From: a bacterium | GTDB taxonomy: Bacteria; Armatimonadota; Zipacnadia; Zipacnadales; UBA11051 | Assembly: GCA_021372615.1 (NCBI GenBank) | Contig: JAJFUB010000143.1 | Location: forward strand, 1-64,000 | DNA length: 64,000 bases | Direction of reading: 5' to 3' | Shown: in pieces, positions 11,845-62,541 of the stretch | Layout: every line of letters begins with the position of its first letter | Position numbering within the stretch: position 1 is the first letter of the stretch | Position numbers and translations under genes: made by a program | The notes under the pieces: generated by a model | The model's database searches: none | What the model was told of the DNA's origin: nothing | The model's input: only the letters and a program-made list of their open reading frames with translations

Positions 11845-11910
11845 TGTAGCGGCCCGACCTTCCCGCGAACCCGCGCCCACCCCGGCGCACTCAGTAGTCA
11901 GGTGAACGAT

Positions 11911-13680
11911 ATGGCTGACGTTACCCTCACCATAGACGGCATCGAGGTTACGGTGCCGCAGGGCACTACCATCATGCAGGCCGCCGACCAGGTCGGCATC
12001 CGCATCCCGCGCCTGTGCTATCACCCGCGTCTCTCCATGGAGGGCGCTTGCCGGGTGTGCCTCGTGGACGCGGGGCTGCGCAACCTGGTCGCCTCGTGCT
12101 GCTACCCGGCTGAGAACGGGATGAACGTCAAGACCCACACCCCCGAGGTCCTGCGCCTGCGCCGCGACATCGTGGAGTTGCTGATTGACAACCATCCCGA
12201 GGACTGCAACTCGTGCGAGCGCGACGGCAACTGCGAGCTGCAGCGGCTGGCCGCGTCCATGGGCATTCGCGAGCGCGTCTTCGCCGGCTCCCGCAAGCGC
12301 TATGACAAGGACCTCTCCGGCCCGGCGATCCTGCGCGACCCCGAGAAGTGCGTGCTGTGCGGACGCTGCGTGCGGATGTGTGGCGAGGTCCAGGAAGTCG
12401 CGGCGCTGGGTCAGGTGCGGCGCGGCTTCCACACCGTCGTCGCCCCGGCGCACGAGGGTCCCATCAGCGAGAGCGTCTGCGTCGGCTGCGGCCAGTGCGT
12501 CAATGTCTGCCCGACGGCGGCCTTCCTGGAAGTGGACGGCACGCAGGACTTCCTGAAGGCCATCGAGGATCCCGACACCATCGTCGTCTCGCAGATGGCC
12601 CCGTCGGTGCGCGCGGCCATCGGTGAAGTCTTCGGCTACACCCCGGGCGAGTGCTGGGAAGGCGAGTCCTTCGCCGCCATGCGCCGCATGGGCATTGACT
12701 ACGTCTTCGACACCCAGTTCGCGGCCGACCTGACGATCATGGAAGAGGCCGCCGAGTTCGTCGAGAAGTTCAAGGCGGGGCGGCTGCCCAACATCACCTC
12801 CTGCTGTCCGACGTGGGTGAAGTTCTGCGAGCAGTTCCACCCCGATCTCCTCCCGCTGCTGTCCACCGCGAAGTCCCCGATGAGCATGCAGGGCGCCGTG
12901 GTCAAGTCGTACTTCGCCGAGAAGCTGGGCGTGGATCCCAGCCGCATCTTCTCGGTAGCGATCATGTGCTGCACCTGCAAGAAGGCCGAGGCGCAGCGCC
13001 CCGAGTTGTTCGTGGGCGACCTGCCCGCCGTGGACACGGTGCTGACCACGCGCGAGTTCGGCTGGCTCATCAAGCACATGGGCATTGACTTCCTGCACCT
13101 GAAGCCCGAGGCGCCGGACCATCCGCTCGGCGACTCCACCGGCGCGGCGGTCATCTTCGGCGCCACCGGCGGCGTGACTGAGGCCGCCCTGCGCACGGCG
13201 TACTGGATGATCACGGGCGAGGACCTCTCGCCGGTGGCCCTCGAGTTCCTGCCCGTCCGCGGGCTCAAGGGCGTGCGCGAGGCGACGATCAACGTGGCCG
13301 GCAGCGATCTGAAGATCGCGGTCGCCAGCGGTTTGGCCAACGCCAACGAGGTGCTCGCGAAGCTGAAGTCCGGCGAGATCCACTACGACTGGATCGAGGT
13401 CATGGGCTGCCCGGGCGGCTGCATCGGCGGCGGCGGCCAGCCGTATGCCGGGGCCAACGCCGTGCCGCTGGACGAGTGCCTGCTGCAAAAGCGCGGCGAA
13501 GCGCTCTACGCGCTGGATGGCGACCGGACCCTGCGCTGCTCGCACCACAACCCCGACATCCAACGGCTCTACCGCGAGTACCTGGGCGAGCCGCTGGGCC
13601 ACAAGTCGCACGAACTGCTGCACACGTATTACTACCCGCGGCTGCCCATGGGTGTGCGGCCGCAGGAGGCGCAGATCTAA
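11911..13680 (+). CDS. hydA: [FeFe]-hydrogenase catalytic subunit with altered H-cluster motif
   Basis: The 589-residue protein has the layout of a bifurcating HydA. It has an N-terminal [2Fe-2S] domain (C36, C47, C50, C63/64), a His-Cys [4Fe-4S] site (H95, C99, C102, C108), two ferredoxin clusters (C147-C157 and C190-C200) and the H-cluster domain. Motif L1 is TSCCPTW (296-302) with the proton-relay Cys298; L3 is EVMGCPGGCIGGGGQP with C500 and C504. L2 reads MCCTCKKAE (352-360) instead of the usual MPCTAKKFE, adding two cysteines at the active site. The start is the ATG at 11911 behind AGGTGA, not the GTG three codons earlier. It is the first gene of locus 1, 2 bp before hydC. Confidence 0.92.
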   Translation: MADVTLTIDGIEVTVPQGTTIMQAADQVGIRIPRLCYHPRLSMEGACRVCLVDAGLRNLVASCCYPAENGMNVKTHTPEVLRLRRDIVELLIDNHPEDCNSCERDGNCELQRLAASMGIRERVFAGSRKRYDKDLSGPAILRDPEKCVLCGRCVRMCGEVQEVAALGQVRRGFHTVVAPAHEGPISESVCVGCGQCVNVCPTAAFLEVDGTQDFLKAIEDPDTIVVSQMAPSVRAAIGEVFGYTPGECWEGESFAAMRRMGIDYVFDTQFAADLTIMEEAAEFVEKFKAGRLPNITSCCPTWVKFCEQFHPDLLPLLSTAKSPMSMQGAVVKSYFAEKLGVDPSRIFSVAIMCCTCKKAEAQRPELFVGDLPAVDTVLTTREFGWLIKHMGIDFLHLKPEAPDHPLGDSTGAAVIFGATGGVTEAALRTAYWMITGEDLSPVALEFLPVRGLKGVREATINVAGSDLKIAVASGLANANEVLAKLKSGEIHYDWIEVMGCPGGCIGGGGQPYAGANAVPLDECLLQKRGEALYALDGDRTLRCSHHNPDIQRLYREYLGEPLGHKSHELLHTYYYPRLPMGVRPQEAQI

Positions 13681-13682
13681 AG

Positions 13683-14219
13683 ATGCGTTACCAGCGCGAT
13701 ACTCTGGAACGGCCCGAATGGTGGCGGCAGCTCGACGAGTACATCGCCGAGCAGAAGCAGCGCAATGCCCAGCATGTGCAGAGCGCCCTGATCCCGGTGC
13801 TGCATCACGTGCAGGACACCTTCGGCTACGTGCCGGCCAAGGCCATCAACCATGTGGCCCAGCAGCTCGGCGTGCCGACCGCGTATGTCACCGGCGTGGC
13901 GAGCTTCTACTCGTACTTCTCGCTCACGCCCAAGGGTGTCTTCACCATCAGCGTGTGCCTGGGCACGGCGTGCTATGTGCGCGGCAGCCAGGCAGTGCTG
14001 GACGAACTGTGCCGGCAGCTTGACTGCAAGCCGGGCGAGACGACCGCCGACGGCCTCTTCACAGTCAAGGAGGCGCGCTGTCTGGGCGCCTGCGGGCAAG
14101 CGCCCGTGATGATGGTCAACGACGTGGTGTACGCCAAGGTGACCCCCGAGCAGATCCCGGGGATCCTGGCGCACCTGACCGCCGAGGCCCAGCAAGAGCC
14201 GACTCTCGCACCGGCCTAG
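13683..14219 (+). CDS. hydC: NuoE-like [2Fe-2S] subunit of bifurcating hydrogenase (HydC)
   Basis: The 178-residue protein matches the 24-kDa NuoE family. A helical N-terminal part with LHHVQDTFGYVPAKAI (about 40-55) is followed by a thioredoxin-like domain with the four cluster ligands C92, C97, C133 and C137 (VCLGTACYVRG and CLGACGQAP). In HydABC enzymes this subunit carries electrons next to HydB. The start codon lies 2 bp after the hydA stop, so translation is probably coupled. No missing ligand is seen. Confidence 0.93.
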   Translation: MRYQRDTLERPEWWRQLDEYIAEQKQRNAQHVQSALIPVLHHVQDTFGYVPAKAINHVAQQLGVPTAYVTGVASFYSYFSLTPKGVFTISVCLGTACYVRGSQAVLDELCRQLDCKPGETTADGLFTVKEARCLGACGQAPVMMVNDVVYAKVTPEQIPGILAHLTAEAQQEPTLAPA

Positions 14220-14257: not shown

Positions 14258-15400
14258 ATGGACATTCCGCTGCGCACTCGACTACAGGTTGGCTTTCTGG
14301 GCGTAGCCCTCGTGGGCGCCGCCCTCACTGCCGCCGGGGTGTGGCTGCTCGGCGGACAGTGGCACGGTGTGGGGGAAGGCCACCTGCCGCTGGGAGTCGT
14401 GTTGCTCAGCACGGTCCCCACGCTCATCATGGGCCTGGTGCTGGCCGGGGTGTTGGCCAACCGCCTCACCCGACGCATCCGGCTGGTGACCGGGGCCGCC
14501 GAACAACTGGAGCAGGGCAACCTGGAGGCGCGCGTACCGCAGCCGGCACACGCCGACCAGGACGAGTTGCGGCGGCTGCAAGTCATCTTCAACGAGATGG
14601 CGGCGGCTCTCCAGGAGCGCGACGATGAACTCCGCCAGAGCCACCAGCAACTGGCCGAGACGACCGAGCAGTTGCAGCAGTGGAACGCAGACTATCTGAG
14701 CACCCTGGCATTCATCACACACGAGCTCAAGAACCAGATCGCCTCGGCGAAGCTCAACCTGCTGGCCGTCCGCGACGGCTACGTCGGGGAGCTGAACCCC
14801 GACCAGCATGAGACGCTGGACGATGTGGTGCACACCGTCCACCGCACCGAGGACATGCTGCGCAACTACCTGAACCTCTCGCGCATCGAGAAGGGCGAGT
14901 TGCAGGTGCGGACGCGGCCGGTGCGGATCGGGAACGAGGTCGTCGCGCCCGTACTCCGGGAGCTGAAGGGCCGGTTCCACGAGCGGAACATGCACGTGGA
15001 GACCGATCTGTCGCCCGACCTGGTCACGCTGGGGGACCCGACGCTGCTGCAGACGGTGTATGAGAACCTGCTCACCAACGCCGCCAAGTACGGCCGCGAC
15101 GGGGGAACGGTCAAGCTGTGGGGCCGCCCGGTGAACGGGATGCTCGAGATGCACGTGTGGAATGAGGGCCCGGGGGTGGCCCCGGAGCAGTTGGGCGAGT
15201 TGTTCGGCAAGTTCTGCCGCCTGGCGCCCCCGGGCGAGGAAGCGCGGGGCACGGGACTGGGCCTGTTCATTGATCGGGAGATCGTACGCCGGCATGGGGG
15301 CGAGATTCACGCTGAGAGCCAGTATGGGGAATGGATTGACTTCGTGTTCACCCTCCCCCGACCGGACGAGATCTTGGCACCGCCGCCGGCCGCATTCTGA
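14258..15400 (+). CDS. Membrane sensor histidine kinase
   Basis: 380 residues. Two membrane segments (about 10-32 and 46-68) enclose only a short periplasmic loop, so there is no external sensor domain. They are followed by HAMP (about 68-120), a coiled coil, HisKA with FITHELKNQ (phospho-His155), the N box ENLLTNAAKYG and the G box GTGLGLF. The small loop suggests sensing in the membrane or through the adjacent hydrogenase subunits. It sits between hydC and hydB, 23 bp before a receiver-only response regulator, so the pair is embedded in the hydrogenase operon. Confidence 0.92.
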   Translation: MDIPLRTRLQVGFLGVALVGAALTAAGVWLLGGQWHGVGEGHLPLGVVLLSTVPTLIMGLVLAGVLANRLTRRIRLVTGAAEQLEQGNLEARVPQPAHADQDELRRLQVIFNEMAAALQERDDELRQSHQQLAETTEQLQQWNADYLSTLAFITHELKNQIASAKLNLLAVRDGYVGELNPDQHETLDDVVHTVHRTEDMLRNYLNLSRIEKGELQVRTRPVRIGNEVVAPVLRELKGRFHERNMHVETDLSPDLVTLGDPTLLQTVYENLLTNAAKYGRDGGTVKLWGRPVNGMLEMHVWNEGPGVAPEQLGELFGKFCRLAPPGEEARGTGLGLFIDREIVRRHGGEIHAESQYGEWIDFVFTLPRPDEILAPPPAAF

Positions 15401-15423
15401 AGCCCTGTGAGGGGTATGACGAC

Positions 15424-15819
15424 ATGAGCGACAAGCGCAGAGTACTGCTGGTAGATGATGATGTGGACTTCCTGGAGGCCAACCGTGTGGCCCTGGAGGC
15501 CCGGGGGTTCGAGGTGCTGACCGCCTCCGACTCGCGCCATGGTGTCGAAGTCGCCACCAGGGAGCATCCCGACCTCATCATCATGGACCTGATGATGGAG
15601 CGGCTCTATGCGGGCTTCTCGGCCGTGCAGGCCCTGGCGGCCCACGAGGCGACCGCGGAGATCCCCGTCATCATGGTGTCGGCCGTGACCACCGAGACCG
15701 GGTTCCGCGTGGACGACAAGGAGCAGCGGCCGGAGTGGCTGCGGGTCGTCGAGTTCATCAACAAGCCGATCGATCCCCTGGCGCTGGCGGACAAGGCCAG
15801 CGCCATCGTGGGTGCCTAG
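15424..15819 (+). CDS. Single-domain (REC-only) response regulator
   Basis: A 131-residue receiver domain with the acidic pocket DDD (11-13), phospho-acceptor Asp55 in LIIMDLMME, the Ser in IMVSAV and the Lys in FINKPID (about 115). There is no output domain. It may relay phosphate to another protein, compete as a sink, or act by protein contact. An insertion between beta4 and alpha4 (ETGFRVDDKEQRPEW) is longer than usual. Its place after the kinase gene makes it the cognate partner. Confidence 0.92.
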   Translation: MSDKRRVLLVDDDVDFLEANRVALEARGFEVLTASDSRHGVEVATREHPDLIIMDLMMERLYAGFSAVQALAAHEATAEIPVIMVSAVTTETGFRVDDKEQRPEWLRVVEFINKPIDPLALADKASAIVGA

Positions 15820-15880: not shown

Positions 15881-17776
15881 ATGACCGCTCAGCAGAGCTT
15901 GCAGCAACTGGTGGAGGCCGTCGCACCCCAGGTCCAGGCGCGGGCCGGCAAGATCGAGGTCTTGTTGGGCATCGCCACCTGCTCGCTGGCCGGAGGCGCC
16001 GACAAGACCCTCACGGCCCTGCAGGAAGCCCTGGACGCCAGCAGCGTGAAGGACCGCCTCGACTTCCGGCAGGTCGGATGTGTGGGCCGGTGCAGCCTCG
16101 AGCCGCTGCTGGAGATCCGCCGCCCCGGCGAGCCGCCGCGCCTGTACGTCCAGGTGGACGCCGAGCGCGCCCGCGAGATCGTCAAGCGCGATCTGGGCGG
16201 CGGCGAGGCCATCCGCGAGTGGCTGATTGACGGCGGCGAGACGCCGTCCGTCGCCCCGGCCGGCGAAGACGAGATCATCAACCGCTTCACGCGCGATTAC
16301 CCGCACCTGGACTTCTTCAGCCGGCAGTTCCGCGTGGCCCTGCGCAACGTCGGCCGCATTGACCCCGAGAGCCTCGATGACGCCCTGTCGGTCGGCGCAT
16401 ACGCCGGGCTGGCCAAGGCGCTCGACGAGATAGCCCCGGACGAGGTCATCGCCACGATCAAGGCCTCCGGCCTGCGCGGTCGGGGCGGCGCGGGCTTCCC
16501 CACGGGCATGAAGTGGGAATTCACCCGCAAGGCTGCTGGCGACCTGAAGTTCGTCGTCTGCAACGCTGACGAGGGCGACCCGGGCGCCTTCATGGACCGC
16601 AGCACACTGGAGGGCGACCCCCATGCGGTGCTGGAGGCCATGGCCATCGCCGGGCACGCCATCGGCGCCAACCAGGGCTACATCTACGTCCGCGCTGAGT
16701 ACCCGCTGGCCGTCAAGCGCCTGAACATCGCGCTGGCCCAGGCCCGCGAGCGCGGCCTGCTGGGCCCGAAGGTGCTGGGCACCGACTTCGCCTTTGACAT
16801 CGAGCTGCGGCTGGGCGCCGGGGCCTTCGTGTGTGGTGAGGAGACGGCACTGCTGGCCTCCATCGAGGGCAAGCGCGGCATGCCGCGCCCGCGCCCGCCG
16901 TTCCCGGCCAACAAGGGCCTGTGGGGCAAGCCGACGGTCATCAACAACGTCGAGACCCTCGCCAGCATCGCGCCGATCATCCTCAAGGGCGCCGAGTGGT
17001 ATGCCTCCATCGGGACCGAGACCTCCAAGGGCACGAAGGTATTCGCCCTGGCCGGCAATGTGGTCAACACCGGCCTGGTGGAAGTCCCGATGGGCATGAC
17101 GCTGCGCGAGATCATCTTCGACATCGGCGGCGGCATTCCCGGCGGCCGGCAGTTCAAGGCCGCGCAGACGGGCGGACCCTCCGGTGGCTGCCTGCCGGCG
17201 GAGTATCTGGACACCCCCATTGACTACGAGTCGCTGCGCGCAGCCGGAGCCATCATGGGCTCGGGCGGCCTCATCGTCATGGACGACGGCAACTGCATGG
17301 TGGACATCGCCCGCTTCTTCCTGACCTTCACCCAGGACGAGAGCTGCGGCAAGTGCACCCCGTGCCGCGAGGGCACGATGCGCATGCTCGAGATCATGAA
17401 GCGCATCACCTCCGGCCGCGGCGAGGAGCGCGACTACGAGCGGCTTGAGCGCCTGGGCAAAGCCTGCACGCGCGGCGCGCTGTGCGGCCTGGGGCAGACC
17501 GCCCCCAACCCGGTGCTGAGCACGCTCCGCCACTTCAAGGACGAGTACGAGGCGCATATCAACGAGGGGCGCTGCCCCGCCCACAAGTGCGCGGCGCTCG
17601 TGCACTATGTCATTGACCCCGAGAAGTGCGTGGGCTGCGGTCTGTGCCGGCGCAACTGCCCGGTGAGTTGCATCAACGGCGAGCCGCGCCAGCCGCACGT
17701 CATTGACGACCAGGCGTGCGTGCGCTGCGGCACGTGCTTCGACGTCTGCCGCTTCGGCGCGATCCGGCGCGACTAG
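15881..17776 (+). CDS. hydB: NuoF-like flavin subunit of bifurcating hydrogenase (HydB)
   Basis: 631 residues. It has an N-terminal thioredoxin-like domain (about 1-100), then the FMN/NAD-binding core with GLRGRGGAGFPTG (about 196-208), the SLBB-type domain, the NuoF [4Fe-4S] site SCGKCTPCREG (about 488-498) and a C-terminal 2x[4Fe-4S] ferredoxin (about 580-628). The N-terminal domain shows only three plain ligands (C34, C67, C71) instead of four, so its [2Fe-2S] cluster may be absent or unusual. The ATG at 15881 is chosen over an upstream alternative overlapping the regulator stop, because the first domain begins there and GAGAGG precedes it. The flavin site is where NAD(P)H and ferredoxin electrons bifurcate. 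Confidence 0.93.
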   Translation: MTAQQSLQQLVEAVAPQVQARAGKIEVLLGIATCSLAGGADKTLTALQEALDASSVKDRLDFRQVGCVGRCSLEPLLEIRRPGEPPRLYVQVDAERAREIVKRDLGGGEAIREWLIDGGETPSVAPAGEDEIINRFTRDYPHLDFFSRQFRVALRNVGRIDPESLDDALSVGAYAGLAKALDEIAPDEVIATIKASGLRGRGGAGFPTGMKWEFTRKAAGDLKFVVCNADEGDPGAFMDRSTLEGDPHAVLEAMAIAGHAIGANQGYIYVRAEYPLAVKRLNIALAQARERGLLGPKVLGTDFAFDIELRLGAGAFVCGEETALLASIEGKRGMPRPRPPFPANKGLWGKPTVINNVETLASIAPIILKGAEWYASIGTETSKGTKVFALAGNVVNTGLVEVPMGMTLREIIFDIGGGIPGGRQFKAAQTGGPSGGCLPAEYLDTPIDYESLRAAGAIMGSGGLIVMDDGNCMVDIARFFLTFTQDESCGKCTPCREGTMRMLEIMKRITSGRGEERDYERLERLGKACTRGALCGLGQTAPNPVLSTLRHFKDEYEAHINEGRCPAHKCAALVHYVIDPEKCVGCGLCRRNCPVSCINGEPRQPHVIDDQACVRCGTCFDVCRFGAIRRD

Positions 17777-17954: not shown

Positions 17955-19553
17955 ATGCCAGAAGCTACCGCCAGCACAGCCCAAGTGACCCCCGTCCCGG
18001 CGCCGTCGGCGGCACGCCCCACGCACCAGATTCTGGTGCTGGATGACGAGTCCGGGATCCGGCGCGGCTGCCAGCGCGTGCTCGTCGCCGAGGGGCACGA
18101 GGTCTACAGCGTCGAGTCGGTGGAGCAGGCCCTGGAGACGCTGCGCCAGCATCCCGACATCGAGGTCGCGCTGGTGGACCTGCGGATGCCCGGCGGCCCG
18201 CCTGAGGCGCCGGACATGGGCGGGATGACCTTCCTGGCCGCCGCCCGCGACGAAGCCCCGCTGCTGGTGTGCAACGTCATCACGGCCTACGCGACCATCG
18301 AGACGGCCATGGAGGGGAGCCGGCGCGGGGCCTACGACTTCCTCGCCAAACCCTTCACCCCCGACGACCTGCTGCGACTGGTGAACAAGTCCCTGGAGCG
18401 GTCGCGCCTGCTGCGCGACCACCAGCGACTGGTATCCGAGCGCGAACGGCGCCTGCTGCAGCTCGCTACCGAGCAGAGCCGCCTGCGCGGCATCGTCAAC
18501 TCCATGGCCGACGCCGTGCTGGTATGCAACGCCGACGACGAGCTGGTCCTCTACAACCCGGCGGCGCTGCGCGTCATGCCCGCCCTGGCGCCCGGGCGGG
18601 AAGCCTATCCCCTCGCTGAGGTGCTGCAGTCCCCCGAACTGCTCGAACTAGTCCACGAGGCGGAGGCGAGTCACGGCCGCCTGTCGCGCGAGATCCAGTT
18701 GCCGGAGGCCCTGGGCGCCCAGTGGGTCTTGGCCAACGTGGCCCCGGTGGCCGAGGAGCAGGGCGCAACCTTCCTGGGCACTGTGACCGTGCTGCGCGAC
18801 ATCACCGAGCTGCGGCGCGTCGAGCAGGTGAAGGCGCAATTCGTCAACATGGTGGCGCACGAGCTGCGGGCGCCCCTGTCGGCCATTGATGGCTACTTGT
18901 CGGTGCTGTACGAGGGCCTTGTGCCCTCGGTGGCCAAGCAGCGGGAGATGATCGGGCGGTCGCGCCAGCGGCTGCGCGCCCTACTCGACCTGGTGAGCGA
19001 CCTGCTCGACGTGGCCCGCATGGAGGCCGGAACGGTGCGGCGGCAGATCCAGCCCCAGGAACCGGCGGCCATTGTGGGCGACGTGGTCGAACTGATGGCG
19101 CCCTCGGCCGCGCAGGCTCAGGTGCGGCTGGAGAACCAGGTGCCGGCGGGCCTCCCGCGCATCGAGGCCGACCGCGAGGAGTTGGTCCGGCTCTTCACCA
19201 ACCTGCTGAGTAATGCCATCAAGTACAACCGGCCGGGCGGGATGGTCAAGGCGTATGCCGTGGCCGAGGGGCCGTATGTCCGCTTTGATGTGGCCGACAC
19301 CGGCGTAGGCATCAGCCCCGAGGGTCTGCAGTCGCTGTTCTCCGAGTTCTTCCGGGAGAAGCGCCGCGAGACCGCGCAGGTCACGGGCACCGGCCTGGGC
19401 CTGAGCATCGTCAAGCGCATCGTGGACTTCTACCATGGGCGGATTGACGTGAAGTCCAGGGAGAACGAGGGGTCCACGTTCAGCGTCTGGCTGCCCCAGC
19501 AGCACGACTCGTCAACGCAGGCGGGCGAGGCCGCCACGGGTGACGCGACATGA
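17955..19553 (+). CDS. REC-PAS-histidine kinase hybrid
   Basis: A soluble protein of 532 residues. It has a Pro/Ala-rich start, a receiver domain (about 25-145, phospho-Asp75 in VALVDLRMPGG), a linker, a PAS domain (about 175-290 with GIVNSMADAVLVCNADDELVLYNP-like sequence), HisKA (VAHELRAP, His about 301) and an ATPase with LFTNLLSNAIKYN and GTGLGLSIV. The receiver has an inserted loop after the phospho-site (GGPPEAPDMGG). It may take phosphate from the membrane kinase at 14258-15400 and combine it with an internal PAS signal. Its stop overlaps the hydE start (ATGA), which ties it to hydrogenase maturation. Confidence 0.92.
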   Translation: MPEATASTAQVTPVPAPSAARPTHQILVLDDESGIRRGCQRVLVAEGHEVYSVESVEQALETLRQHPDIEVALVDLRMPGGPPEAPDMGGMTFLAAARDEAPLLVCNVITAYATIETAMEGSRRGAYDFLAKPFTPDDLLRLVNKSLERSRLLRDHQRLVSERERRLLQLATEQSRLRGIVNSMADAVLVCNADDELVLYNPAALRVMPALAPGREAYPLAEVLQSPELLELVHEAEASHGRLSREIQLPEALGAQWVLANVAPVAEEQGATFLGTVTVLRDITELRRVEQVKAQFVNMVAHELRAPLSAIDGYLSVLYEGLVPSVAKQREMIGRSRQRLRALLDLVSDLLDVARMEAGTVRRQIQPQEPAAIVGDVVELMAPSAAQAQVRLENQVPAGLPRIEADREELVRLFTNLLSNAIKYNRPGGMVKAYAVAEGPYVRFDVADTGVGISPEGLQSLFSEFFREKRRETAQVTGTGLGLSIVKRIVDFYHGRIDVKSRENEGSTFSVWLPQQHDSSTQAGEAATGDAT

Positions 19554-20563
19554 CGCCCATGACTGACCGGGAGCTGCGCGAACTGGTTGTGGCGGAGGGG
19601 CCGGCGGCGGCGGAGCTGCGCGCCGAGGCCGACCGGGTGCGCCGCGAGACCGTCGGCGACGACGTCTACCTGCGGGGGATTGTCGAGTTCTCCAGCCACT
19701 GTCGGTGCGACTGCGAATACTGCGGCCTGCGTATCAGCCACCGTGATCTCGCGCGGTTCCGCATGACCCCGGCGCAGGTGGTGACGGCGTGCCGCGACAT
19801 CGCCCGGTTCGGGTTCGGCACGGTCGTGCTGCAGTCCGGCGAGGATCCCTGGTGGACAACGCGCCGCGTGGCGGATCTGGTGACAGCCATCAAGGAGGAG
19901 ACACCGCTGGCGGTGACGCTGTCGCTGGGCGAGCGGGACACGTCGGACTACCGCCGGTGGCGCGAGGCCGGGGCGGACCGGTACCTGCTCAAGCACGAGA
20001 CGGCGAACCGCGAGCTGTACGAGCGGCTGCACCCCGGCGCTTCGTACGACCGGCGTCTGGCCTGCCAGGACGCGCTGTTTGACCTGGGCTACCAGGTCGG
20101 CTCCGGCTGCATCGTGGGCCTGCCGGGGCAGACGCCTGACGTCCTGGTGGAGGACCTGCGGCTGATCGAATCGCGCGGCTACCACATGTGCGGCCTGGGG
20201 CCACTGATCCCCCACCCGGCCACGCCACTGGGGGCGGTACCCGTCGGGTCGGTCGAGACGAGCCTGAACATGATGGCGCTGGTCCGGCTGCTGGTGCCCG
20301 ATATCATGTTGCCAGCCACCACGGCGCTGGAGACCGCCGAGCCCGGAGCGCGCGTGCGCGCCCTGCAGGGCGGGGCCAACATCCTCATGCCCAACCTCAC
20401 CCCCCGCCGGTTCGCCAGCTTCTACGACATCTACCCCGGCAAGAAGGCACCCCAGCTCACCCTCGCTCAGGAAGTCGAGCGGACGCTGGCGATCGCGCGG
20501 GCCGCTGGCCGGCCGGTCGGGTCCGGGCCCGGTCACAGCCGGCGCACTTCCTCAGGGACCTGA
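19550..20563 (+). CDS. hydE: [FeFe]-hydrogenase maturase HydE (radical SAM)
   Basis: The 337-residue protein has the radical SAM CxxxCxxC motif at C51, C55 and C58 (CRCDCEYC), the position and context typical of HydE. The family segments LQSGEDPWW, SLGERD and YLLKHET follow, and the LGPLIPHPATPL segment is characteristic. HydE acts on the organometallic precursor made by HydG during synthesis of the two-iron subcluster. The start overlaps the upstream kinase stop by 4 bp. hydG and hydF are not in this window. The additional Cys53 between the cluster ligands is unusual. Confidence 0.9.
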   Translation: MTPMTDRELRELVVAEGPAAAELRAEADRVRRETVGDDVYLRGIVEFSSHCRCDCEYCGLRISHRDLARFRMTPAQVVTACRDIARFGFGTVVLQSGEDPWWTTRRVADLVTAIKEETPLAVTLSLGERDTSDYRRWREAGADRYLLKHETANRELYERLHPGASYDRRLACQDALFDLGYQVGSGCIVGLPGQTPDVLVEDLRLIESRGYHMCGLGPLIPHPATPLGAVPVGSVETSLNMMALVRLLVPDIMLPATTALETAEPGARVRALQGGANILMPNLTPRRFASFYDIYPGKKAPQLTLAQEVERTLAIARAAGRPVGSGPGHSRRTSSGT

Positions 20564-58715: not shown

Positions 58716-60494
58716 TCACCGGGGCGTGTAGGTATCCCACAGCCAGTCGGACCCCTCGGCACTCCGCTTCTCCTCGTCCTCGCCGGTCAGCTCCACCAGG
58801 TGCTCCACCAGTTGCTCGCCCTGGGCGGTGCTTTCGCCGAGGAACTGGGCCATCTTCTGGGCCATGCTGAGCTGGTGTTCGAGCAACTCGCGCGCCTGGG
58901 TGAGGGTCTGGGCGCGCAGTTCGGTCAGCTTCTTCTGGCTGTCGTGGGTGGAGGTGACGTTGACGAAGATACCGGCGTACTGGTGCTCCTCGCGCAGTGC
59001 GTACATGATCTGGTGGGTGACCAGCTTGTAGCGATCGTGGCGCGCGGTCATCTCCACGATCTCCTCGGCGCCCGACGCGAGCCGCTCGAAGGGGTCGGGG
59101 TCCATTAGGTAGGAGATGGGCTTGCCCAGGCAAGCCTCCGAGCACATGAAGAAGCGCCGGAAGGCCGGGTTCATGGCGATGATGGTGAGGCGCTCGTCGA
59201 GGATCACGATGCCGTTGGGGCTGGTCTCGATGATGCGGTCGGTCCGCTGCTCGGCCAGGCGCCGCATGTACGGGATGCACATCTCGGGCTCGGCCATGCC
59301 GCGCAGGACCGCGATGGCCTTGTCGCGGCAGGAGTTGTAGCCGCAGGCCCCGCAGTTCAGCTCATCCTCGGGGGCGACCTTGCCCGTCAGTGCCAGGATG
59401 CGCTTGATCTCTTCCTCGCGGATCGGCTGATCGGCGTCGAGGCCGGCCGGGGTGAACTCGGTGCGCAGCGCCGGGCGGGCCGGGACCTCGCCCTCCGGGG
59501 TTCGGCCCTGGTGGTCGTGCGCATAGCCCATGAGGTCCTGCCGCCGGTCGTACACATTGGCGTCGCAGGTGATCGCCGGGCCGTTGATGCAGCCCTGGGC
59601 GCAGAACAGCGGCTCGATGATGACGGGGCGCGGGTGCTCCTTGAGGCTGTCGAGGGCGGCGCGGATCTCGTCTATGCCGGTCACCGGCACCACGTCCGCG
59701 GCGAGCAGGTCGGTGTTCAGATGGGAGGTGCGGATGCTGCCGCCGGTGACGGGGAAGAACCGCGCCTCGCCCTCCGGCTCGTCGTCGAAGTCACTTTCCT
59801 CGCAGGCAGCCAGCGAGATGCCCTCGCGCTCCATCCATTCGGCCAGCTCGCGGAAGGTCAGGACGCAATCCACCAGCCCGGCGAACTCCGGCCGGTCGGC
59901 CTCGGCCTTCTTGGCGACACAGGGGCCGATGAAGACGACCCCCGCCTGGGGGCCCAGCTTCTCCCGGATATGGCGGGCGTGGGCCATCATGGGCGAGACG
60001 ATGGGCGTGAGGCTCGGGACCAGCTCGGGGTCGTACTTCTCGACGTAGCTCACCACGGCCGGGCAGGCGGTGCAGACGTGCGCCCGGTCCGGCTGGTGGC
60101 GCACCAGCTCGGCGGTCATGGCCGCGACCTGGTAGGCGCCGATGGCCGTCTCGGCGATATGGCTGAAGCCCAGCTTGCGCAGGGCCGAGGGCAGCCGCTT
60201 GCGCTCCCAGTCCGAATACGCCGCCGCAAAGGAGGGGGCCAGCGATACGGCCACCGGCCGGCCCGAGCCGATGAGGCGCACGGCGCACTCGATGTCGTTG
60301 CGGAACTGCTTGGCGCCCTGGGGGCACTCGCGGATGCACGTGCCGCAGGCCAGGCAGCGCTCCGGCTCGACCATCGCCTGGCCCTTGTGCATCGAGATGG
60401 CCTTCACCGGGCAGACGCGCACGCAGCGGTAGCAGTCACGGCAGCGCGCCTTGTTCGTGAACACGACCTGATTAGGCGGACGCTCGGAGGTCAT
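58716..60494 (-). CDS. hydS: Sensory [FeFe]-hydrogenase with PAS domain (HydS, group C-like)
   Basis: 592 residues. A two-cluster ferredoxin domain (C18-C28, C47-C57) leads to a divergent H-cluster domain. L1 is CTACPAVV with Ala143 where catalytic enzymes keep the proton-relay Cys; L2 is GPCVAKKAEADR (C192); L3 is EPLFCAQGCINGP (C298, C302). A FeS domain (CGACGYNSC, C381, C384, C389, with C406) and a PAS domain (about 418-520) follow, then a coiled-coil tail. This is the organisation of sensory HydS proteins that report H2 to a downstream output. The PP2C gene 145 bp after it is the likely partner. Turnover is expected to be low. Confidence 0.92.
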   Translation of the reverse strand: MTSERPPNQVVFTNKARCRDCYRCVRVCPVKAISMHKGQAMVEPERCLACGTCIRECPQGAKQFRNDIECAVRLIGSGRPVAVSLAPSFAAAYSDWERKRLPSALRKLGFSHIAETAIGAYQVAAMTAELVRHQPDRAHVCTACPAVVSYVEKYDPELVPSLTPIVSPMMAHARHIREKLGPQAGVVFIGPCVAKKAEADRPEFAGLVDCVLTFRELAEWMEREGISLAACEESDFDDEPEGEARFFPVTGGSIRTSHLNTDLLAADVVPVTGIDEIRAALDSLKEHPRPVIIEPLFCAQGCINGPAITCDANVYDRRQDLMGYAHDHQGRTPEGEVPARPALRTEFTPAGLDADQPIREEEIKRILALTGKVAPEDELNCGACGYNSCRDKAIAVLRGMAEPEMCIPYMRRLAEQRTDRIIETSPNGIVILDERLTIIAMNPAFRRFFMCSEACLGKPISYLMDPDPFERLASGAEEIVEMTARHDRYKLVTHQIMYALREEHQYAGIFVNVTSTHDSQKKLTELRAQTLTQARELLEHQLSMAQKMAQFLGESTAQGEQLVEHLVELTGEDEEKRSAEGSDWLWDTYTPR

Positions 60495-60531: not shown

Positions 60532-62541
60532 TCAGACAGCCACTGCGGCCAGTTGCGCCGTCAGGGCCGCCATAACCTTGTCTAGATTGGTCCGTTCCAG
60601 GATCTGCTCGCCGACGCGCACCGTCGGCCCGCGGTCGCAGCGCTCGAAGCAGAAGGTGGCCTTGACATCCACCTGGTCGGCCAGCCCCTCGTCCTCCAGC
60701 CGGTGGATCAGGGCGCGCAGCAGGTCCTGCGAGCCGCGCAGGTAGCAACTCGTCCCCACGCACACGCTGATCTGCAGCTTGTGCTGGGCGCCGCTGACCA
60801 GGTCCACGTCCTCATCCTGGATGCGCCGGCGGCTGTGGTAGCCGGTGTGCAGCAGCGCGTGCGCCTTGTGCCCGCCCACCTCGCCCAGAGTCGTCTGGTA
60901 GGCCTCCTGGACGTAGGGGTTCTCCTGCGCCTTGTGCAGTTGCAGCGTCTTGTCGGCCTCGTACAGGCCCGCGGCGCGGCGCTGCCGCACGTCATGCTCG
61001 AACGAGACGGGCTGCCCGGCCCCGCCGATGCAACCGCCGGGGCAGGCCATGACCTCGATCAGATCATACTGGCTCTCGCCGGCCTTGACCTGCTCGGCCA
61101 CGCGGCGGGCGTTGGCCAGTCCGTTCACCAGCGCGAGGCGGATGGTCTGGCCGTTCACTGTGACCTCCGCCTCGCGCAAGCCCTCCAGCCCGCGCACTTC
61201 GTGGAAGTCCACGGCCTCCAGCTTCACGCCGCCGAGCTTCTCGGCCGCCAGCCGCAGCACGGCCTCGGTGACGCCGCCGGTCACGCCGAAGATGACGCCC
61301 GCGCCGGTCTTGAAGCCCAGGGGCAGGTCCAGCGACTCGGGCTGCAGCTTGTTGAACTTCAGGCCGGCCTCGTCAATCATGTGAGCCAGTTCCTGGGTGG
61401 TCAGCACGAAGTCCACCTCCGGCACGCCGTCGTGGATGAACTCCGAGCGCTGCGCCTCGAACTTCTTGGCGGTGCAGGGCATGATGGAGACGATGACGAG
61501 GTCCTCGTTCGCTACGCTGAGCTGCTCGGGCAAGACCTCGCGGGCCAGCGCCCCGAACATCTGCTGGGGCGACTTGCACGAGGACAGGTGCGGCAGCAGC
61601 TCCGGGTAGTACTGCTCGGCGAACTTGATCCAGCCGGGGCAGCAGGAGGTGAACTGCGGCAGCTTGCCGCCCTGCGCCACCCGGCTGAGGAACTCGTTGC
61701 CCTCCTCGACGACCGTCAGGTCTGCGGCGAAGGAGGTGTCGAACACCTTGTCAAAGCCGAGGGCCTTCAGCGCCGCCACGATCTGGCCGGTGGTCACGAC
61801 GCCGGGCTCCAGGCCGAAGGCCTCGCCGAGGGCGACGCGGACGGCCGGCGCAATCTGGGCGACGACCTTCTTCTGCGGGTTGTGGAGCACTTGCCACACC
61901 GGCTCGACCTGTGACTTGGGGGTGATGGCGCCGGTGGGGCAGACGCTGGCGCACTGGCCGCAGTTGACGCACTCGACCTGCGCGAGGTCCTTGTCGAAGG
62001 CCGGGGCGACCTGTACGTGGGCGCCGCGATGCGTGAAGTCAATCGCGCCGATGCCCTGCACTTCCGCGCACATGCGCACGCAATCACCGCACAGCACGCA
62101 CTTGTTCGGGTCGCGCACCAGCGAGGGCGAGGAGGTGTCGAGCGGGAAGGCCGGCTGGGTGGCGTGGAAGCGCACCTGATCCAGGCCCAGCCGCCGCGAG
62201 ATGGCCTGCAGCTTGCAGGTGGCGCTCTTGGCGCACGTGGGGCAGGCCTGCTCGTGGTTGGCCAGCAGCAGCTCCACGGCGATCTTGCGGATCGCGCGGA
62301 TCTTCTCGTTGTTGGTCGTGATCTTCATGCCCGGCTCGGGGGCGGTGGAGCAGGAGGTGACGATGCCCCGGCCCTCGATCTCCACCAGGCACAGGCGGCA
62401 AGCGCCGTACACGCTCAACTCCGAGTGGTAGCAGAAGGTCGGGATCTCGATGTTGGCCTTGCGAGCCAGCTCGAGGACATTGGGCTCGCCCTCGATCGGT
62501 ACTTCCCGCCCGTCTATGATCGCGACATCCGTGCTCTTCAT
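60532..62541 (-). CDS. hydA: [FeFe]-hydrogenase catalytic subunit with C-terminal [2Fe-2S] thioredoxin-like fusion
   Basis: 669 residues. N-terminal [2Fe-2S] (C37, C48, C51, C64), His-Cys cluster (H96, C100, C103, C109), two ferredoxin clusters (C148-C158, C191-C201), then canonical H-cluster motifs: TSCCPGW (298-304), MPCTAKKFE (354-362) and EVMACPGGCIGGAGQP (C500, C504). The last 80 residues are a NuoE-like thioredoxin fold with C594, C599, C631 and C635, i.e. a HydC-type domain fused on. It lies between hydB and hydS, and the fusion may replace a separate hydC. Locus 1 HydA differs in motif L2. Confidence 0.93.
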   Translation of the reverse strand: MKSTDVAIIDGREVPIEGEPNVLELARKANIEIPTFCYHSELSVYGACRLCLVEIEGRGIVTSCSTAPEPGMKITTNNEKIRAIRKIAVELLLANHEQACPTCAKSATCKLQAISRRLGLDQVRFHATQPAFPLDTSSPSLVRDPNKCVLCGDCVRMCAEVQGIGAIDFTHRGAHVQVAPAFDKDLAQVECVNCGQCASVCPTGAITPKSQVEPVWQVLHNPQKKVVAQIAPAVRVALGEAFGLEPGVVTTGQIVAALKALGFDKVFDTSFAADLTVVEEGNEFLSRVAQGGKLPQFTSCCPGWIKFAEQYYPELLPHLSSCKSPQQMFGALAREVLPEQLSVANEDLVIVSIMPCTAKKFEAQRSEFIHDGVPEVDFVLTTQELAHMIDEAGLKFNKLQPESLDLPLGFKTGAGVIFGVTGGVTEAVLRLAAEKLGGVKLEAVDFHEVRGLEGLREAEVTVNGQTIRLALVNGLANARRVAEQVKAGESQYDLIEVMACPGGCIGGAGQPVSFEHDVRQRRAAGLYEADKTLQLHKAQENPYVQEAYQTTLGEVGGHKAHALLHTGYHSRRRIQDEDVDLVSGAQHKLQISVCVGTSCYLRGSQDLLRALIHRLEDEGLADQVDVKATFCFERCDRGPTVRVGEQILERTNLDKVMAALTAQLAAVAV

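Follow-up and report, generated by a model that had tools for sequence, protein, structure and literature searches.

What two additional cysteines would do beside a cluster ligand of an [FeFe]-hydrogenase is the question raised by locus 1 of the window, i.e. the whole 64,000-nucleotide stretch of Armatimonadota DNA analysed here. The first-pass annotation had noted that the L2 loop of the catalytic subunit HydA reads MCCTCKKAE, and translation together with alignment to CpI of Clostridium pasteurianum (MPCTSKK) bears this out, with cysteine at both 354 and 357 (residue numbers are those of CpI, counted on the alignment of the window HydA with CpI). The window HydA departs from the group A signature of this loop, MPCxxKxxE, which is printed as a description in the accessible text of PMC5506873 and PMC11926857; C355, K358 and E361 are retained. 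The plus-strand frame 11902-13680 is translated without interruption into a HydA of 592 residues, the likely start being the ATG at 11911, with the GTG at 11902 as the alternative. The protein passes both TIGR02512 (group A [FeFe]-hydrogenase; 466 bits, cut-off 405.95) and NCBIfam NF040763 (NADH-dependent group A6, HydABC type; 778.7 bits, cut-off 765). The genes of the locus are:

11911 to 13680, plus strand: hydA, catalytic subunit of an A3-type (HydABC) [FeFe]-hydrogenase (NF040763, TIGR02512, PF02906 at 3.1e-87)
13683 to 14219, plus strand: hydC, NuoE-like [2Fe-2S] subunit (PF01257 at 5e-52; frame open from 13476, ATG at 13683 likely)
14258 to 15400, plus strand: HAMP histidine kinase within the operon (profile match)
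15424 to 15819, plus strand: response regulator within the operon (profile match)
15881 to 17776, plus strand: hydB, NuoF-like FMN/NADH subunit with a ferredoxin-type C-terminus (frame open from 15812, ATG at 15881 likely)
17955 to 19553, plus strand: receiver-PAS-histidine kinase (profile match)
19550 to 20563, plus strand: hydE, radical SAM maturase of the H-cluster (TIGR03956, 312.6 bits, cut-off 254.6)

A NuoE-like HydC and a NuoF-like HydB, whose co-encoding is the mark of the HydABC type, are both present, and locus 1, typed from its genes, would be an NAD(H)-linked [FeFe]-hydrogenase of that type. A histidine kinase and the response regulator (14258-15819) lie between hydC and hydB, with the receiver-PAS-kinase after hydB; among relatives the kinase content differs, and HydA, HydC, the response regulator and HydB are constant. 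The maturase set HydE, HydF and HydG is complete in the genome of the window, with HydE in the hydA operon, HydG on contig C152 (712.8 bits) and HydF on contig C28 (543.5 bits, both pieces), each above its cut-off. A second HydG-like protein (genome G000, contig C19, 12121-13425, plus strand) scores 266.6 bits, below the cut-off of 312, and its gene is ~8 kb from an Fe_hyd_lg_C protein at C19:3742-4422. The predicted structure of the window HydA has the expected fold, with a mean pLDDT of 73.6 and most of the H-domain of good quality.

The altered residues are distributed over all three active-site loops:

12796 to 12816, plus strand: L1, TSCCPTW; C299 and C300 retained, G302 replaced by T
12964 to 12984, plus strand: L2, MCCTCKK; P354 and S/A357 replaced by C; M353, C355 and K358 retained
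13396 to 13422, plus strand: L3, EVMGCPGGC; A498 replaced by G; M497, C499 and C503 retained

The block T302/C354/C357/G498 stands in place of the normal G302/P354/A357/A498, each changed site being one or two residues from a ligand of the cubane (C300, C355 or C499), and the three loops together hold seven cysteines against five in the normal TSCCPGW/MPCTAKK/MACPGGC. In the alignment all five H-cluster cysteines of CpI (C299, C300, C355, C499 and C503) are present, as are E279, E282 and S319 of the proton path, with lysine at R286 (proton-transfer residues as named in the available portion of PMC11803613). An earlier description of L1 and L3 as intact holds for the cysteine ligands but not for G302 and A498, which move with L2. 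The thiols had also been placed beside the two-iron subsite, which appears not to hold on the published evidence: C354 and C357 stand on either side of C355, which binds the [4Fe-4S] cluster, and PMC11926857, in the part available, puts S357 near [4Fe-4S]H. Taking homology and published work together, all four sites probably lie near the [4Fe-4S] half of the H-cluster.

The same genome encodes a HydA of normal type, as had been stated, so that the two forms coexist:

60532 to 62541, minus strand: HydA of locus 2, with normal TSCCPGW/MPCTAKK/EVMACPGGC loops and a C-terminal NuoE-like [2Fe-2S] region (translation and profile match)

Its L2 in full is MPCTAKKFE. A third catalytic-type HydA on contig C18 (row L002 of the HydA set below) has TSCSPGW/MPCVAKK/EIMCCPGGC, and the six Fe_hyd_lg_C proteins of the genome comprise these three and three others with a shorter match. 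One of the latter three, an [FeFe]-hydrogenase of sensory type in which FeS and PAS domains are found (58716-60494, minus strand; GPCVAKKAE, TACPAVV), adjoins the locus 2 HydA. L002 has a different additional cysteine beside the cubane, at 498 in L3 (EIMCCPGGC); it recurs in 20 other rows, all 21 being TSCSPGW/MPC and none having C354.

The motif is recurrent. MCCTxKKxE is found in 10 of the 46 genomes of the class, every one reading MCCTC with synonymous codons that vary, and MxCTCKKxE is found in 10 of the 291 genomes of the phylum, all with C354; C357 without C354 was not seen in the MxCTCKKxE context among these 291. Scanning of genome contigs for MCCTxKKxE gave 113 stretches, i.e. 106 HydA, five without a motif-bearing frame and two unrelated short frames. 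Of the HydA, 99 have MCCTA and seven MCCTC, and all seven of the latter are labelled Armatimonadetes, Armatimonadota or Armatimonadia; the MCCTA records are chiefly from Phycisphaerae and other Planctomycetota, Omnitrophota, Armatimonadetes, Auribacterota, Margulisbacteria, Elusimicrobia, Spirochaetales and others.

Coupling among the four sites was followed in a HydA set of 227 rows with recognisable L1 and L2, reduced to 190 by deduplication; because the MCC rows were partly collected by motif, its counts are joint states and not natural frequencies. C357 occurs in 10 of the 190 rows, and all 10 also have T302, C354 and G498. Of the 108 rows with C354, 107 carry A or T at 302, and G498 is present in all 104 in which L3 was read. 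T302 and C354 occur together with A357 in two rows, and the block is thus not indivisible beyond the Armatimonadota subclade described below. A hypergeometric value of 1.8e-6 for the joint states assumes independent columns among 23 preselected loop columns and is not relied on. At the position of the cubane ligand C300, 158 of the 190 HydA have serine (TSCSPGW, TSCSSAW, TSCSAAW etc.), including most of rows L047-L159 and many paralogues. Selenocysteine was considered for Planctomycetota HydA with one internal TGA and rejected, since the TGA is at the extreme end of the match and these are ordinary stop codons.

Comparison with known enzymes supplies precedents for parts of the block. CpI agrees with the window HydA (~35% identity) in ligands and proton path and has no natural cysteine at 354 or 357. 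The best matches by sequence and by fold are HydA1 of the electron-bifurcating HydABC complexes of Thermoanaerobacter kivui (8a6t; sequence E 2.3e-182, 48% identity in the fold search) and Acetobacterium woodii (7q4v/7q4w; 2.7e-153 and 44%), which have the same domain order but neither extra cysteine, L2 and L1 being MPCIGKK and TSCCPSW in the former and MPCTAKK and TSCSPGW in the latter. HydA2 of the H2-dependent CO2 reductase (7qv7_D) shares Cys357 (MPCTCKSYE) but differs from the window HydA in having P354, L1 TSCCPAW and L3 EVMTCPEGC and in belonging to a CO2-reductase complex. CpIII, of group B, carries a naturally occurring additional cysteine in one of its H-cluster loops (TSCCCP) with an effect on catalysis, according to the portion of PMC12138974 available; unlike those of the window HydA this cysteine is in L1, distal to the cluster. 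L1 of the window HydA, TSCCPTW, does not have the three cysteines of the CpIII-like group B. The HydA with MCCTAKK (Planctomycetota, Omnitrophota, Armatimonadota and others) are 55-60% identical to the window protein and share its C354 and G498, but retain A357 and have an L1 that is mostly TSCSSAW or TSCSAAW, with TSCCPTW in two rows. The solved T. kivui and A. woodii complexes have NuoE- and NuoF-like partners, as at locus 1, and T. kivui is the source of the CO2 reductase (HDCR) as well. CbA5H-type O2 tolerance is survival through a cysteine that binds the distal iron; the window HydA has C299, as group A enzymes generally do. A survey of 195 BfuA of Hydrogenedentota prints the P2 motif as xxMPCxAKK (PMC11406978, in the part available), and no hydrogenase paper carrying the loop motif strings of the window HydA or of the MCCTA enzymes was found in a search that covered little of the subscription literature. 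C357 alone has precedent in a solved enzyme; neither C354 and its clade nor the switch at all four sites turned up in the literature so searched.

The history of the block was traced on a tree of 132 of the 190 rows, in which 30 of the 87 TSCSSAW/MCCTA rows were kept at random (57 omitted) and one short fragment was dropped. All 51 MCC rows gather in a single group of 59 rows, the other eight of which are MPC (quick tree, SH-aLRT 91), and C354, judged by this tree, is the mark of one multi-phylum HydA clade. Within the MCC group L242 and L243 (genomes G354 and G316, Phycisphaerae-type class sample) are further P354 rows that have G302 but keep G498, possibly partial reversions to the normal block. 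The window HydA belongs to a 16-row Armatimonadota subclade (support 100), of which 10 rows have T302/C354/C357/G498 and six have the normal G302/P354/A357/A498; the six are L016 (family f6) and five rows of family f5, at two places on the tree. The MCC-TC pattern, which had been put forward as the possible mark of a clade, accordingly defines a recognisable group that falls short of a strict clade, since six of 16 subclade rows are normal.

The two placements persist when the three motif loops are excised. In a careful search with 22 rows (9 of the 10 MCCTC, all six normal and seven others) L016 pairs with the MCCTC row L010 (99/98), and forcing the six normal rows into one clade costs 43.9 units of lnL (p-AU 0.002, a value weakened by the choice of the six-row group after the first tree), the minimum number of changes being two. 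Since the six normal rows are not one clade, all four sites have apparently switched jointly, as a unit, at least twice; only two switches are known, which is a small number. The nearest outgroups carry C354 and G498, which makes reversion to the normal block the simpler direction. Ten MCCTC and five normal operons, compared without the incomplete L260 over 1,550 columns of HydA, HydC, the response regulator and HydB, show the four sites as the only fixed-versus-fixed differences, with none in the partner subunits HydC, response regulator and HydB of these 15 operons. In a control in which L256 was swapped for each of the ten MCCTC rows, at most two fixed differences arose in HydA and at most one in HydB; further columns that separate the forms without being fixed number three in HydA and six in HydB. 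The MCCTC rows are 71-76% identical to the window protein, and the block is invariant in all ten. L010 and L016 share 79% of their residues and differ at all four cubane-side positions.

As to what the block does, the tentatively favored explanation, possible rather than probable, is that the four coupled residues rebuild the protein shell at the [4Fe-4S] half of the H-cluster, with a shift of potential and catalytic bias in an enzyme of the HydABC type. T302, C354, C357 and G498 would act in concert: G498 would provide the space, and the threonine and both thiols would alter how the cubane is packed and hydrogen-bonded. The redox potential of [4Fe-4S]H would then shift, and with it the balance of H2 production against uptake, so that the MCCTC enzyme would be fitted to a task other than that of its normal paralogues within one cell. 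It is the literature on the surroundings of 302 and 357 that leads us to hold that the block may repack the cubane pocket and change potential and bias. In the available text of PMC11926857, citing Artz et al., S357 is near [4Fe-4S]H, M353 and S357 tune reactivity and S357 the bias; G302 is near the [4Fe] subsite in what is accessible of PMC12138974; and a residue beside [4Fe-4S]H of T. maritima HydS shifts the potential by 50 mV and changes activity (PMC10055695, in part). Redox tuning by the block would thus be extrapolated from residues other than cysteine at these positions. Two of the four positions have been engineered and solved in CpI, to judge by the titles of entries 7qhf (G302S) and 8cjy (S357T).

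The hydrogenase complement differs between the two sets of hosts. Two or more A3-type HydA are found in 8 of the 10 hosts of the MCCTC block, and just one HydA is matched at E 1e-100 in 5 of 6 MPCTA hosts against 2 of 10 MCCTC hosts (Fisher p 0.035); since the five f5 hosts are probably one event, this contrast does no more than hint that the altered enzyme is retained where a normal HydA is also present. No host trait examined accounts for the double loss of the block.

Shielding from O2 or other oxidants is the chief alternative to redox tuning, a serious one though less likely: T302 and C357 would narrow a water and O2 path by the cubane, and the thiols would serve as a sieve or a sacrificial guard. 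G302T and A357C are bulkier and go in the same direction as G302S and S357T of CpI. The latter two are reported to withstand O2 better by way of a water channel next to the cubane. The phyla in which MCC rows are common are usually regarded as anaerobic, which counts against shielding, and bulk leaves P354C and A498G unexplained. The CpI variant T356V/S357T was the most O2-tolerant of a library, according to the part of PMC9919214 available. Cytochrome bd is encoded in 7 of the 46 class genomes: five of these are among the 10 MCCTC hosts (three strong matches and two at E near 1e-18), none is among the six MPCTA hosts and two are genomes without this orthologue. This contrast between hosts, the one correlate of an altered oxygen sensitivity and a weak one, is not significant (Fisher p 0.09, and 0.25 when strong matches alone are counted) and ignores kinship. 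Haem-copper oxidase subunit I was detected in two of the 46, one an MCCTC host (G044) and none an MPCTA host, and in the genome of the window neither oxidase was detected.

Neutral epistasis, in which four compatible packing partners would have drifted jointly and silently, would accord with the retention of ligands and operon in both forms and with the lack of a clear host correlate. We regard it as doubtful, since the change is joint across three loops and has apparently happened two or more times, the four sites are alone in being fixed differences among the 1,550 columns, and the block is invariant among ten rows as divergent as those above.

Alternative ligation, i.e. binding of a cubane iron by C354 or C357 in a ligand-swapping or cysteine-rich [4Fe-4S]H, has a model in the six-cysteine proximal cluster of O2-tolerant [NiFe]-hydrogenases. 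Both cysteines flank the ligand C355, the loops have the two cysteines in excess already noted, and other clade members have serine at 300 and yet keep C354. However, all four usual ligands are retained in the window HydA, and S300 occurs without C354 in 62 of 82 P354 rows, so that C354 is no simple replacement ligand; as a general stand-in for C300 it was rejected. Such ligation is therefore improbable. In a more elaborate form, also improbable, T302/C354/C357/G498 would be a switchable cassette giving a cysteine-rich [4Fe-4S]H with hemilabile thiolates, toggled by the hydrogenase complement and parallel to the [NiFe] proximal cluster.

Gene conversion from a normal paralogue would account for the MPCTA block of L016 and family f5 with few events, and these could produce a joint change. 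It is very improbable. When the alignment is cut into 40-column windows, the row nearest to L016 is almost always L010 (MCCTC), L1 and L3 included, and over L2 row L017 is only slightly closer (0.80 against 0.78), so that no tract is shown by the window-wise identities and conversion was rejected for L016. Its operon layout is that of the MCCTC rows L010 and L043, which together with the closeness to L010 argues against replacement or conversion. The paralogue of L016, L172, has TSCSPGW and cannot donate TSCCPGW, and the f5 hosts with the block lack a second HydA match at E 1e-100. A sequencing or assembly error, which had been allowed for and which only the oddness of the motif would suggest, is excluded by its occurrence in 10 of the 46 class genomes with synonymous codon differences and in seven Armatimonadota-type records.

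Studies of the influence of the protein shell on potential, bias and O2 sensitivity of the H-cluster have relied mostly on engineered point mutants, and the four-site block draws attention to combinations of 302 with 354, 357 and 498 that would escape work on single sites. L010 and L016 constitute a near-matched natural pair at all four cubane-side sites, and with such pairs the second-sphere effect of [4Fe-4S]H would be directly testable.
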